From: Cutaneotrichosporon cavernicola
Taxonomy: Eukaryota > Basidiomycota > Tremellomycetes > Trichosporonales > Trichosporonaceae
Length of the DNA stretch: 64,000 nt
Assembly (NCBI RefSeq): GCF_030864355.1
Contig: NC_083397.1
Span: 2,232,001-2,296,000 of the forward strand
Direction of reading: 5' to 3'
Positions 37,938 through 60,755 of this stretch are shown here, piece after piece (position 1 is the stretch's first letter; each line of letters opens with the position of its first letter). A model generated the notes under the pieces. The model searched no databases. It was not told where the DNA came from and worked only from the letters and a program-made list of their open reading frames with translations. Made by a program: the position numbers and the translations under genes.

Positions 37938-39974
37938 ATGAAGATCACGGACAAGCTCCTCGCCGCCGAGCGCGAGGGCCGCCCGTTCTGGAGCTTTGAG
38001 TACTTCCCCCCGCGTACTGCGCAGGTATGTCCAAGTCGGCCGCCGAATAACGAGCTGAGACGTGGAGCTGGGTTCCAAGTTGGCTGACGTATAGGGTCTC
38101 CAGAACCTCTTTGACCGTATCGAGCGTATGCGCAACCTCGGACCCGAGTTTATCGACATTACCTGGGGTGCTGGCGGCAAGAATGCCGACCTGACCTCGT
38201 CGCTCGTCGAGGTGTGCCAGGGAACCCTTGGCATCGAGACCTGCATGCACCTCACATGTACCGAGAGTGAGTGATGACGGATCATTCCCACGCCGGAGTC
38301 ATTGCGGCTGTTGGGCTGCTGGGTATCTCTTTCCTTGCCTTGCAACAGCCGCTCCACCCGAGTGTGCTTCTCTGAGATGTGTACTAACGTCGCAGTGCCC
38401 AAGGAGAAGGTCGAGTGGGCGCTCAAGCAGGCCAAGGCTGCCGGATGCCAGAACATCCTCGCCATGCGCGGCGACCCCGTTGCTGGCTCCGACGTCTGGA
38501 AGCCCACGCCCGGCGGCTTCATGTACGCCATCGACCTCGTCCGCTACATCCACAAGCACTACCCGAACGACTTCTGCGTTGCTGTCGCTGGCTTCCCTCA
38601 GGGCCACCCCGAGACGCCCCTCACTCCTGAGGGCAAGCACCAGGAGATGCTGTGGCTCAAGGAGAAGGTGGACGCGGGCGCCGACTTCATCTTCACGCAG
38701 ATGTTCTACGACGTCAACCTGTTCTTCCAGTGGGTCAAGGACGTGCGTTCGTACGGTATCACCGTGCCCATTGTGCCCGGCATCATGCCCATCCAGAACT
38801 GGCAAAAGTTCCAGACCTGGGTTAAGCGCGAGAGCATTGTCGTGCCCCCCGAGTGGTACGATGTCCTCCTTCCTGTACAGGGCGACGACGAGCAGGTGCG
38901 TGCTAGAGGCACCAAGCTCGTGGCCGAGATGTGCCGCGCGCTTCTCGACAACCAGGAGGCTGGTATTAAGGGTCTCCACGTTTACACCCTCAACCTCGAG
39001 AAGGGCGCTCGCATGCTTCTCGAGGAGCTCGACATGACACCTCGCCGCGAGCAGGTCATGCCTCTCCCCTGGCGCCCATCTCTCACTCCTTCGCGTCGTT
39101 CCGAGACAATCCGCCCTATCTTCTGGGCCAACCGTGTGCAGTCATACCTTTCGCGCACCAGCGACTGGGACGAGTTCCCTAACGGTCGTTGGGGTGACTC
39201 GCGCTCTCCCGCTTACGGTGACCTCGACGGTTATCCTGTCGCTATCGGCACCAACGTGAGTCACTCTGCATTTCGCTGCCAAACTAGGCTAACGTCAAAC
39301 AGGCTAAGGAAGCGCTCGAGCTCTGGGGCTCTCCCCAGACCCGCGCCGAGGTCAACAGCCTGTTTTCCAAGTTCTGCCGTGGCGAAGTCAAGAAGCTCCC
39401 CTGGTCGCAGAACGGCGCGTCGTCCGAGACGTCGGTGATCACCGAGCAGCTCGCGAAGATGAACGAGCGCGGCTATCTGACGATCAATTCGCAGCCGGCC
39501 GTCGACGGTGCGCGCTCGGACGACAAAGTGCACGGTTGGGGTCCTACCGGCGGATACGTGTACCAGAAGGCGTACCTCGAGTTCTTCGTCAAGCCAGAGC
39601 TTCTCAGCTCGCTCATCCGCCGCATCGAGAAGGACACGCGCATCACCTACTACGCCGTCAACAAGCAGGGCGACCTGCGCACGAACACTCACTCGGAGGG
39701 CCCCAACGCCGTCACCTGGGGTGTCTTCCCCGGCAAGGAGATTATCCAGCCGACCATTGTCGAGGCCGTCTCCTTCATTGCGTGGAAGGACGAGGCGTTC
39801 GAGCTCGGCTGTCAGTGGGCCAACTTATACCCCGAGGACTCGCCGTCGCGCGCCCTCATCCGCAACATTATGGACACGAGCTACCTCGTCAACATTGTCG
39901 CCAACGACTTCAAAGACGGCATGGCCATATTTGAGCCTTTTCTCCTCGACCAGCCGATGACGAACGGCGCCTAA
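37938..39974 (+). CDS. MET13: Methylenetetrahydrofolate reductase
   Basis: This flavoenzyme reduces 5,10-methylene-THF to 5-methyl-THF for methionine synthesis, in the cytosol. Introns of 70, 129 and 47 nt leave 1,791 nt and 596 aa, the normal eukaryotic two-domain length. The N-terminal barrel is clear: FWSFEYFPPRT (catalytic Glu region), EFIDITWGAGG, GIETCMHLTCTE joined to MPKEKV, NILAMRGDPV, FCVAVAGFPQGHPE, ADFIFTQMFYD and VPIVPGIMPIQNW. After ALLDNQEAGIKGLHVYTLNL comes the linker MTPRREQVMPLPWRPSLTPS RR. The regulatory domain carries DELFPNGRWGDSRSPAYGDL (here beginning DEFPNGRWG), VHGWGPTGGYVYQKAYLEFF, YYAVNKQGDLRTN, AVTWGVFPGKEI and FIAWKDEAFELG. The Met at 37938 begins the conserved MKITDKL start. 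The 3' flank holds the hairpin cluster. Confidence 0.96.
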
Positions 39975-39989
39975 GCGCCACATAGAACA

Positions 39990-40309
39990 GCGGATCCAAC
40001 CCCGCATCACCAAGAAACCTAGCTGCAGATCCAACCCTGCTGTATCATAGTCTCAGTCTCAATATAACGCACGCGCGGCACGGATCCAACCCCCGCCGCG
40101 GCGTGAGAAATCATCTGTGGATCCAACCCCACAGTCTCCCTCATCCGCACACACATATACGTATTCGTTGTATCGTCCTCAACGGACGAGCCGTTCAACC
40201 CGGCCAGTACCCGGCTCAACCCATACCTCTCACATTATACCCACCCGCAAGGATACCCCCGGCCCCGCGGCATGCCGCGCAGAGGTCGTACAGGAGAGGT
40301 TCAACTCCT
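39990..40309 (+). ncRNA. Cluster of hairpins with a shared ATCCAACC loop, 3' of MTHFR
   Basis: Four hairpins carry the same loop ATCCAACC on different stems. At 39990-40005 the stem is GCGG/CCGC. At 40025-40040 it is GCAG/CTGC. At 40075-40099 it is CGG/CCG plus an outer GCGG/CCGC, with a 9-nt loop. At 40115-40134 it is CTGTGG/CCACAG. Related hairpins follow: GTCC-TCAAC-GGAC (40175-40187), GCCG-TTCAACC-CGGC (40190-40204) and AGGAG-AGGTTCAA-CTCCT (40292-40309). The palindrome GCGGCATGCCGC lies at 40267-40278. Stems change while complementarity and loop are kept, as expected of a selected RNA structure. Position 15 nt after the MTHFR stop suggests a 3' UTR element, though an independent RNA or the antisense strand is possible. 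Pairing was read by eye. Confidence 0.5.
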
Positions 40310-40681
40310 CGCAAAGGCAACATACGCAAGATACTACATGCATTGATTGAGACTAGGACGTGGTGCTGATGTGGAGGACGAGTTGAGTCTTAGTTGTGTC
40401 TTAACCTGGTGCTGTGCTGAGAGGACGCGTTGATCCCCGCTCTGCGGGTGTTTGAGGAGTACCCCAGTTCTGACTGACGTTCCCGATCTCTAAATCCTCT
40501 GCTGACTAGTTGTGCATCACCCGACAACGACCATGCCCTCTCGCGCCACCCATCCTACTATGTTCGTTTGCGGATGTATGCATATGTCACAGCTACTCTA
40601 TCCCGGTGCGCCTACCGCCCCGGGCTCGGCACGAACCACCAGCCCGCGCACTACGCAACGCGGGCGCCAAGAATCGCGCGC
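40310..40681. other. Convergent intergenic region
   Basis: About 0.37 kb between the hairpin cluster and the eIF3l stop codon. No gene or clear structure was seen. Confidence 0.45.
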
Positions 40682-42597
40682 TTAAGCGGCTACGCGCACC
40701 TGACGCGACTTGGGTGCCCAAGCCTGGGGTTTCCGCTGCTCTGGCTTTACGGCGTCCTTCTTGGCCTCGTCCTCCTTGCGACGGGGGGAGGGAAGCGGGG
40801 CTGCGCGGATAGTGTTGAACACGCGCTGTGCGTGCTCTGCGTTACGGATAAAGAAGCCGGCATAGCGGCGGTGAGCAGTCGTCTCCTCGACGTGGACCAT
40901 TGCGCCGTCAACGGTAAAGTCGAGGTTGTTGGTGACGATGCGGTCACCGTCGAGAAGCGAGCCGCCACCAGCGTGCTTGCCGTACGTGCGCGACGCGGCC
41001 TTGAGGACCATGAGCTGCTCGAGGACCTCCTCCTCCTCGGCGTCGCCACCCGTCTCGAGGAAGGCTGCGAGCTTGGCCGCATCAATCGACGTGTACAGCT
41101 TGAGGAGGTTGCGGACGTTGGAGACGCCACGGACCGAGATCACGTCCGAGAGGAACAGGTCGAGGTGGCGCTGGGTCGCGTCGGGAGGAGGGGCAGCCAT
41201 CCACTCCTGCAGCGCGTCCTGGTCCTCGTACGGAGGAGGGTTGACCGACAGGTACTTGGGGCAAGCCTGGAGGAAGAGCTCCTTGTACACCTCGAGAGCC
41301 TCGTCACCACCACGCTGGAGCACCTGGAGCTGGTCGCCATAATGCTCCTTGACGTTGGACATGATGCTGTCGTCGGTCGGGCCGGGCGAGAGGGTCGTGC
41401 AGATGGCAAGGAGCGCGTACATGCGCTCGCTCGTCTTGGTGATTGAGCCGTACTGGTAACTCCTGGTGTGGTACTGCTTCATACGCAGGAAGAAGATGAG
41501 GACGTTGATAAACGTCTTGACGGCGTCGGGCCACCGGCCCAGAGCCATGTACGCGCATCCGACGTGGTAGTAGGTCGTGACGTGGCACGCCGTGATACGG
41601 GTGAGGAAGGCCGAGCTCGAGAGCTCGACATTCTCCATCGTCTGGAGAGCGAGCGTCGGGTCACCAAGGAGAACGTGCACGCGCAGCAGGCAGATGAGGG
41701 AGAAGTAACCCAGGTTGCGGTAGAGCGGCTTGGAACCGTACTCGCCCGCAATGTCGGCGACCTCGTCGGCGCTCTTGCCGGCCTTTTCGGCCTGGAGCTG
41801 CTCGTTGATCTGCGACTTTTGAACCAGCGAGTAGAGAACGTTCAGGACAGAGTAGCACGACCAGATCTGGCTCGCCTCTGCGAGCATGTCGAGCTCGTCC
41901 TCGTTCTTGGCCTTTGCGTTGGCACGCCACTGAGCAAACGACTGGAACTGGTACACAAACTCGTCGAGCATGTCCCACAGCCACTGGATCGGCAGGTCGA
42001 GGGGAACCGGTCCGTCAGAGTTCAACAAGTAGTTGAACAGCTCGCAGATGTTCTCGTACGACTGGAAACGGTCGTCAATGGTCGGCTGGAGACGCGCATA
42101 AACGTGGCGGAAGTAGAGCTCGCGGTAGAGCGTCAGGAACACCTGGTCGTTCTGGACAAGGGGAGCAATGAGCTCGGCCTCGGGCCACTCGGCGTGCTGG
42201 TAGTACGCCTGGGATCAGCTTCAAGCTCCACCTCCTAGTCCTAGTGCTACTCACCTGAGTGAGCTTGTTCCACCCGCTCTCGTACATGTTGGTGATGGTG
42301 GGCAGGTCGTTCTCAAGGATGGCCTGGTGGAAGAGCACGAGGAACTGCGGTCAGCCTAATCGAGACGCGTCGATGCAAACGTACGCGCTTGACGTCCTCG
42401 GGAATCGCCTCGAGCGCCTGCGCCTGGTCCTTCTCGGCAGCCGCGAGCTGCTGGGCGTACGTGTGCTGCTCGAGCTCCTGGAGGCGCCGGTAGCTCTCCT
42501 CGTTGGTGTAGCCCTGCTCGCCGCCGTATTGGGGAACGGCGAGCGACGAGAGGAGCTCGTCCTCCTCGGGCTCGTAGAACGCGGTTGGGTCGGCCAT
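40682..42597 (-). CDS. EIF3L: Eukaryotic translation initiation factor 3 subunit L
   Basis: A PCI-domain subunit of the eIF3 complex that organises 43S pre-initiation complexes. It is absent from S. cerevisiae but kept in many other fungi. Introns of 40 and 46 nt leave 1,830 nt and 609 aa. The N-terminus, [20 protein letters not shown], is acidic. The eIF3l core shows [100 protein letters not shown] and [20 protein letters not shown]. The PCI end includes [18 protein letters not shown] and [21 protein letters not shown] Lys/Pro-rich tail ends RQVRVAA. Identity is secure. Confidence 0.96.
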
Positions 42598-57754: not shown

Positions 57755-58938
57755 ATGTCCACTGCCGCCGCCAACCCTATCGCGGCGTTCTTCGCCTCGG
57801 TGTGGCTTCAGATCCTGACCGTCTGGCACACCGGCTTGATGTTCATCCCTTGGGTCCGTCCGCACTGGGGCCTCAATGACATGGCCGACCAGCGGGGACG
57901 TGTGAGTGCTCCCCTTTCCCCCCCCCCCCCCGTCCTTGCTGATGATAGGTCATCGTGATCACGGGCGGAAACAGTGGTACAGGATACGCAACTGCTTTGG
58001 CTTACTACTCTCGCGGCGCGCGCGTCCTCATCCTCTGCCGATCGGCGGAGCGCGCCGCTAAGGCCATTGCCGATCTCAAACGCGGCGGTGTCGCCAACGT
58101 CCTCTCTGAAATGGAGTACACCCCAGTAAACGAGGAGCGTGTCGGCACGCTCGAGCACATCCCATGCGACCTGGCCGACCTCCACTCTGTCGATGAGGCT
58201 GCACGCATGATTGCTGAGCGCGTGGACCGCGTCGATGTGCTCTTCGCCAACGCCGGAGTTATGGGGATGAATGGGCGCACGAAGCAAGGCTATCCCCTCC
58301 AGTTTGGCACTAACGTGAGATCCAGGATCCAAGTTACAGCTGACCCCTAGGTACTCGGACACCAGCGCCTCATGGCCCACCTCCTCCCCCTCCTCCGCAC
58401 ACCACGACCCCGGCCCGCACGTATCATCTCCCTCGCCTCTGCCACACACATTCAGGCTCCTCCGGGTGGCATTGACTATGCCGGCCTCGACAGCGGAGCT
58501 GATCGTAATGTGTGGCTCGAGTACAGCGAGAGCAAGTGGGCCATCATCGCGCTTGCCAAGTACGTACACGCGCACTACGGGCCGACTTGCAAGGACGGGG
58601 TTTGCAGCGTCCCTGCTCCCGGAGAGATCATCTCCATTGCCGTGCATCCGGGCCTAGTGTCTACCAACCTGTTCATGCACCTCCAGACTGCAAAGTGGTT
58701 GAGCTACACGTTCACTTGGCTGCTCAAGCTCGTCTTGTGCACGGCAACTATCGGCTCTCTCAACCAGATTTGGGCCGCTGAGGTCGCGGATCCCATTGCC
58801 CGCGAGCTCAGTGGCGGGTATGTTTGGTGTTTCCAGGAGCGAGGAAGGGAGCGGGTCGATCTCGAGGCTGAGGCTGGGACTGCAGCAGGGGAGACGGTGT
58901 GGGCATGGTGCGAGGCGCAGGCTGCTCGCCATGAGTAG
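57755..58938 (+). CDS. Short-chain dehydrogenase/reductase, membrane-anchored type
   Basis: An NAD(P)-dependent oxidoreductase of the classical SDR family, similar in layout to retinol dehydrogenase/WWOX-like enzymes; substrate unknown. Introns of 47 nt (57902-57948, with a 14-base C run) and 36 nt leave 1,101 nt and 366 aa. The first 35 residues, AFFASVWLQILTVWHTGLMF, are hydrophobic and probably anchor the protein in a membrane. The cofactor motif is VIVITGGNSGTGYATALAYY, then ADLHSVDEAAR and VLFANAGVMG. The active site is IISLASATH and YSESKWAIIALAKY (Ser, Tyr-x3-Lys). IAVHPGLVSTNL follows. The Met at 57755 is chosen over one 21 codons upstream. It lies 258 bp downstream of the oxidase in the same direction and is convergent with the deacetylase, 66 bp between stops. 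Confidence 0.9.
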
Positions 58939-60664: not shown

Positions 60665-60755
60665 GCCTCGTTATATCAGTCGGTAGATTAAATGACTCTT
60701 AATGCGGTTAGTCCGGTTGATCATTCGGTCGTGGGTTCGAGCCCCACACGAGGCT
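60665..60755 (+). tRNA. tRNA-Lys(CTT): tRNA-Lys (CTT), with an 18-nt intron
   Basis: Acceptor stem GCCTCGT (60665-60671) pairs fully with ACGAGGC (60748-60754), with discriminator T. The anticodon arm is AATGA-CTCTTAA-TCATT, with anticodon CTT at 60698-60700. An 18-nt intron (about 60702-60719) sits at the canonical position after base 37. The T-arm is GTGGG-TTCGAGC-CCCAC. The spliced length is 73 nt. The D-stem TATC/GATT keeps three pairs and has a T-T mismatch at 10-25, and the A box is off consensus (TTATATCAGTCGG against the usual TTAGCTCAGTCGG). A run of T at 60761-60764 can end Pol III transcription. Confidence 0.9.

Follow-up and report, generated by a model that had tools for sequence, protein, structure and literature searches.

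A candidate CAAC-loop RNA element downstream of an MTHFR gene in Cutaneotrichosporon cavernicola

The MTHFR locus and its hairpin array

We analysed a 64-kb stretch of the Cutaneotrichosporon cavernicola genome (hereafter the window), in which a hairpin array follows a gene identified as MTHFR by its match to PF02219. The C-termini of seven homologues all finish in the same region, at most about 30 residues beyond a common FEPFLLDQP-like end. A protein search with this MTHFR returned one 94% identical MTHFR piece among the listed matches, and a search of viral contigs for MTHFR found no relative. On the other side of the array, an open reading frame on the minus strand (40682–42142), which by eye resembles eIF3 subunit l, is convergent with MTHFR. 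The comparison covers this one genome of 20.2 Mb.

A reading of the sequence on its own (the sequence-only reading) had placed the start of the array 15 nt past the MTHFR stop codon, which agrees with a stop ending at 39974 and a first stem beginning at 39990. It had also described four copies of one loop, each closed by a different complementary stem, and three looser hairpins with TCAAC or TTCAA loops. The features are as follows.

39972..39974, forward strand: MTHFR stop codon TAA (sequence; PF02219 match to the gene)
39990..40005, forward strand: h1, GCGG-ATCCAACC-CCGC (sequence, fold, covariance model)
40025..40040, forward strand: h2, GCAG-ATCCAACC-CTGC (sequence, fold with a pair probability of about 1 in context, covariance model)
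40074..40100, forward strand: h3, ATCCAACC loop with an inner CGG/CCG, a bulge and an outer GCGG/CCGC, the weakest copy (sequence, fold, covariance model)
40115..40134, forward strand: h4, CTGTGG-ATCCAACC-CCACAG (sequence, fold with a pair probability of about 1, covariance model)
40173..40189, forward strand: h5, TCGTCC-TCAAC-GGACGA (sequence, fold)
40190..40204, forward strand: h6, GCCG-TTCAACC-CGGC, with a 7-nt loop like that of a tRNA T-arm (sequence, fold)
40296..40310, forward strand: h8, GAGG-TTCAACT-CCTC, tRNA T-arm-like (sequence, fold)

Four copies of GATCCAACCC lie on the forward strand within 39993–40129, and ATCCAACC starts at 39994, 40029, 40084 and 40121. The stems around them are as first written: those of h1, h2 and h4 are perfect, differ in sequence and span 4, 4 and 6 bp, and that of h3 is bulged. 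The other three hairpins are also present, but they are not loose, since h5, h6 and h8 have perfect stems of 6, 4 and 4 bp. A CAAC core is common to all loops and, because these three hairpins likewise have perfect stems, six of the nine CAAC words of the array fall inside hairpin loops, compared with 140 of 2177 in a sample that includes the array. Downstream of the array, the 13-nt word GAGGACG[AC]GTTGA occurs in two copies 47 nt apart (40374–40433); the GTTGA within it could pair with the TCAAC loops.

Folded singly, each hairpin forms on both strands. When the upstream coding sequence is included in the fold, h2, h4 and the inner pairs of h5 have pair probabilities near 1 and h6 about 0.5; h1, h3 and h8 are outcompeted, with pair probabilities of 0.02, 0.05–0.31 and 0.06–0.07, respectively. 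Comparison of the strands in this context gave a value near 1 for h2 on the mRNA strand versus 0 on the opposite strand, and 0.5 versus 0.03 for h6, with h4 and h5 forming on both strands and h1 on neither. Local folding relative to shuffled sequence gave z = −2.0 on the mRNA strand (4 of 100 shuffles equally good) and z = −1.2 on the opposite strand (13 of 100).

Chance expectation and the search for further copies

With the loops and the closing G-C pairs held fixed, the total stem length was matched in one of 200,000 random-flank simulations, so the stem complementarity is beyond chance. In 36 stretches read on both strands (204.3 kb, with 30 of 35 loci chosen by the pattern GATCCAACCC), no four-letter core but CAAC (with its own complement) had six hairpins in a 330-nt span; the runner-up had four. 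Defining an array as at least two hairpins that share one 7–9-nt loop, or three that share a 6-nt loop, with different stems, we found no other in 175 kb, and 20 Markov-shuffled versions of the window yielded none. The combination of a constant loop with varying, complementary stems is thus real, as the sequence-only reading had held. Formal covariation among the four copies is weak and only suggestive, with 26 of 500 shuffles reaching the observed score, and these array statistics are partly post hoc, the array having been chosen from 64 kb.

That reading had further held that the array is not a decayed DNA repeat, and no dispersed copies came to light. A DNA search with the 366-nt array region against the 20.2-Mb genome, which skips very common words, returned only the self-match, and pattern searches likewise gave no further copies that would make it a dispersed or tandem repeat. 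A covariance model of the four copies (R1) recovered just those four at E < 0.01 across the window and 11 other loci (134 kb); its weak extra matches lie at 58784 in the window (E 0.27) and on the minus strand of the SHMT locus (L088), outside the SHMT 3′ flank (E 0.18). ATCCAACC has 771 sites genome-wide against 393 for a control pattern, few of them viewed in context. For GATCCAACCC, with 51 sites of which 34 were viewed in context, at least four pairs (including G-U) flank three of the four copies in the array versus one of 30 outside. TCCAACC pairs spaced 12–40 nt number 52 in the genome, two entries being the array itself; on inspection, most of the others look like coding sequence or simple repeats. 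A triple CCAACC pattern has 80 sites and is no test of uniqueness, because the spacing of the array itself falls outside it. Pattern matches in six viral contigs, also judged by eye, were repeats or isolated words that lacked the layout of the array. Within the limits of these searches, the 20.2-Mb genome yielded no second array of this kind.

The h5-like form was examined in the same way. SNCCTCAACGGNS has 118 sites genome-wide versus 45 for a control pattern, but the flanks around CCTCAACGG are complementary at 10 of the 100 listed sites (of 118) against a permuted mean of 11.3; with no genome-wide excess, the CCTCAACGG hairpin is not selected across the genome. Inspection of 131-base pieces by eye, with coding counted on either strand, put seven of these ten fully complementary sites in coding sequence, one in a 5′ UTR and two in 3′ flanks. 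Among the matches listed, those two are MTHFR and C1-THF synthase; the pattern also covers a SAHH site on contig 8, which therefore belongs to the 18 unlisted sites. The 5′ UTR-like hairpin (C2:281.8k) precedes a low-complexity protein in which 180 residues carry no sign, by eye, of a one-carbon enzyme. As a class, TCAAC pentaloops are not enriched (6 versus 3.8 expected in 336 kb).

Hairpins beside other one-carbon and methyl-cycle genes

Six other genes were located by Pfam family: a second MTHFR, MET6 (cobalamin-independent methionine synthase), SAM synthetase, SHMT, C1-THF synthase and SAHH. None of their 3′ flanks contains ATCCAACC. The flank of C1-THF synthase carries cgcc-TCAAC-ggcg 89 nt past the stop, that of SAM synthetase carries ggcg-TCAAC-cgcc 383 nt past the stop, where it may lie outside the 3′ UTR, and that of SAHH carries both gctg-ACAAC-cagc and gccc-TCAAC-gggc less than 100 nt from the stop. 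The CC-TCAAC-GG form of h5 thus recurs 3′ of C1-THF synthase and SAHH. The sole TCAAC-loop hairpin in the flank of the second MTHFR, gcag-TCAACATT-ctgc, has an 8-nt loop; no TCAAC-loop hairpin was found in the MET6 or SHMT flanks, that of MET6 having just a TGCGCAAC loop, at 617. The folate/methionine connection proposed in the sequence-only reading gains modest support from the UCAAC hairpins after C1-THF synthase, SAM synthetase and SAHH; the flanks of MET6, SHMT and the second MTHFR lack the pentaloop.

The starts of the ACAAC and UCAAC pentaloop hairpins of SAHH (L090) are 38 nt apart, forming a small array that resembles that of MTHFR. Other words are also shared between these flanks: GCATAGTA occurs in those of SAM synthetase, SHMT and C1-THF synthase (L087, L088 and L089) and twice in the 64-kb window, and could be a 3′ UTR or 3′-end signal; GTAGCATAGTA is common to those of SHMT and C1-THF synthase.

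UCAAC-pentaloop hairpins follow three of the six other one-carbon genes and none of 77 control flanks, the latter taken from a crude codon-usage gene finder at its loosest setting, with rough gene ends and some overlapping flanks (stricter settings gave 48, 26 and 12 control flanks, the last including MTHFR). In the 77 control flanks, 18 of 327 CAAC words lie in any 5–9-nt loop. In the six flanks pooled (3,989 nt, MTHFR excluded), CAAC tops the 256 four-letter cores in its tendency to lie in hairpin loops, with 8 of 27 words in loops versus 1.7 expected (p = 0.0004; p = 0.002 when counted as seven hairpins). SAHH supplies four of the eight loop words, and three of the eight (one in MET6 and a pair sharing a single SAHH hairpin) are over 600 nt beyond the stop codon. 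NCAAC pentaloop hairpins number four in the six flanks against 0.12 expected, a figure derived from 16 such hairpins over 524 kb of strand positions, with 60 of the 65 background loci chosen by GATCCAACCC, CCAACC or TCCAACC patterns.

The pentaloop form was singled out after the examples in h5, SAM synthetase and C1-THF synthase had been seen. The SAHH flank, set beforehand as a held-out test, contained two pentaloop hairpins. For SAHH alone, p is about 0.055 for TCAAC anywhere in a 5–9-nt loop and 0.004 for the exact pentaloop; the exact criterion had been left unstated in advance, and the background figure had been given for TCAAC in 5–9-nt loops.

Known systems, alternative explanations and a possible regulatory role

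No covariance model of Rfam release 15 matched positions 39500–41000 up to an E value of 5, in keeping with the earlier remark that no described family is known to have this loop. At the gathering threshold, the only match in the whole window was a tRNA at 60665. Rfam confirms this tRNA gene (60665–60755), in which ARAGORN in bacterial mode reads a stop anticodon; judged by eye, it resembles a tRNA-Lys(CUU) gene with an intron. Literature searches with strict term combinations returned nothing on Tremellomycete stem-loops, fungal hairpins and RNA-binding, fungal conserved RNA structures, fungal METTL16 or post-transcriptional control of the methyl cycle.

The closest known arrangement is that of vertebrate MAT2A. 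According to PMC7927073, METTL16 recognizes hairpins hp1–hp6 in the MAT2A 3′ UTR, recognition needs both loop sequence and structure, a stem swap between two of the hairpins had little effect, and several one-loop 3′ UTR hairpins tune SAM supply. The MTHFR array shares the plan of several same-loop hairpins past the stop codon of a methyl-cycle gene. Its loops, however, are CAAC-based, whereas the MAT2A loop is UACAGAGAA, and the target here is MTHFR, with the SAM synthetase flank carrying one UCAAC hairpin. UACAGARAA is absent from the array loops (the 700-nt MTHFR flank contains TACAG once, outside the loops, and no ACAGA), and the array is therefore not a member of the MAT2A/METTL16 system.

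A basidiomycete parallel is offered by Khd4 of Ustilago maydis, where, in the excerpt of PMC10688622, one RNA-binding protein destabilizes related mRNAs through the 3′ UTR motif AUACCC. The likeness is to a 3′ UTR motif read by one protein, as proposed here; the differences are that Khd4 reads AUACCC, that the excerpt mentions no hairpin array, and that the two AUACCC copies of our array (at 40237 and 40253) lie between the hairpins and not in their loops. Across the window, AUACCC occurs 10 times on the forward and 12 times on the reverse strand. UCAAC is also an iCLIP pentamer of SRSF3 in the passage of PMC10321290 that reports it, and both UCAAC and ACAAC appear in a Bind-n-Seq table in PMC8348266. 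An SRSF3-type RRM would thus share its UCAAC with the pentaloops here, although the passages of these two papers describe no hairpin requirement. Because UCAAC is among the pentamers of this animal RRM protein, a reader of CAAC loops is plausible.

Several explanations other than a protein-read RNA element have to be weighed. The array might be a structure private to this locus, protecting or terminating the MTHFR mRNA between convergent genes, with its loop spread by local duplication and the other pentaloops coincidental. The convergent neighbour, the failure to find a second array by DNA search or patterns, and the lack of any excess of complementary flanks around CCTCAACGG across the genome all accord with this, as does a 24-nt alignment of h1, h2 and h4 in which h1 shows 71% and h4 75% identity to h2. 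The copies nevertheless have little sequence in common outside the loop, their stems change yet stay paired, and chance is unlikely to have put UCAAC pentaloops behind three further genes of the pathway, albeit for a form chosen post hoc and with crude controls; we consider this account unlikely, though worth serious attention. Chance clustering without function draws on the post-hoc pick from 64 kb and on the modest formal covariation of four sequences, but it has to contend with the one match in 200,000 simulations and with the absence of any same-loop array from 20 shuffled windows, and seems to us improbable.

Mimicry of the tRNA T-arm concerns a different part of the array. Here h6 and h8 would be Pus4/TRUB1 substrates, or the DNA a cluster of TFIIIC B-boxes, with the ATCCAACC hairpins as variants. 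Both h6 and h8 have the 7-nt loop and the TRUB1 motif GUUCNANNC, as given in PMC5713356, on 4-bp stems; h1–h5 do not have the motif in such a loop. Among the 102 GTTCNANNC words sampled, just 9 form such a hairpin, and one of the 9 belongs to the tRNA gene (60665–60755). In addition, h8 fits the B-box consensus GGTTCRANYCC. The four main loops, however, are of 8 nt with A in place of the first U of the motif, the pentaloops fit neither the Pus4/TRUB1 motif nor the B-box, and neither tRNA nor any other Rfam family matches at the array; the idea remains for h6 and h8 only and is, for the array as a whole, rather improbable. An element acting as DNA, whether a repeated motif bound by protein or a cruciform, would suit the ability of the isolated hairpins to fold on either strand. 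It sits poorly with the preference of h2 and h6 for the mRNA strand in context, and a protein reading duplex DNA needs no matching variable stems, which leaves it very improbable.

In this one genome the searches turned up no second array, the stems of the array are complementary, its hairpins are predicted to fold locally and related hairpins lie beside methyl-cycle genes. From this we infer transcription as 3′ UTR, selection, a reader protein and the direction of its effect. The explanation that we favour, tentatively and at less than even confidence, is an RNA element with CAAC loops in the MTHFR 3′ UTR, read by a protein and perhaps common to the methyl cycle. The earlier suggestion of a selected, protein-recognized RNA element is partly supported, by the constant loop, the varying stems and the failure to find dispersed copies, but its appeal to covariation stays suggestive. 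The 3′ UTR of the MTHFR mRNA would bear at least six, and probably seven, hairpins presenting a CAAC core in loops of the forms AUCCAACC, UUCAAC[CU] and UCAAC. The loop, merely presented by the stem, would be read by a protein that binds single-stranded RNA, for instance one of the RRM or KH type, whose binding would set the stability or translation of the mRNA; multiple sites in one 3′ UTR could make that binding graded and cooperative. The single or paired UCAAC/ACAAC pentaloop hairpins in the 3′ flanks of C1-THF synthase, SAHH and SAM synthetase would be a minimal version of the element, and since they lie beside other methyl-cycle genes, one protein may adjust the whole pathway in concert.

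The broadest form of this proposal, which we put forward as speculative and on balance unlikely, is that the one-carbon/methyl cycle of this fungus, and perhaps of its relatives, is coordinated post-transcriptionally through CAAC-loop hairpins in MTHFR, C1-THF synthase, SAHH and SAM synthetase, with one putative reader and the MTHFR array as the main control point, an independent counterpart of MAT2A–METTL16 with a different loop. If true, a structured RNA code would join methyl-cycle mRNAs in a fungus, with a clear prediction (mutation of the loop CAAC, swapping of stems) and a means of tracking down the protein that reads it, and it would suggest that control of methyl metabolism by hairpin arrays, as in vertebrate MAT2A, arose more than once.
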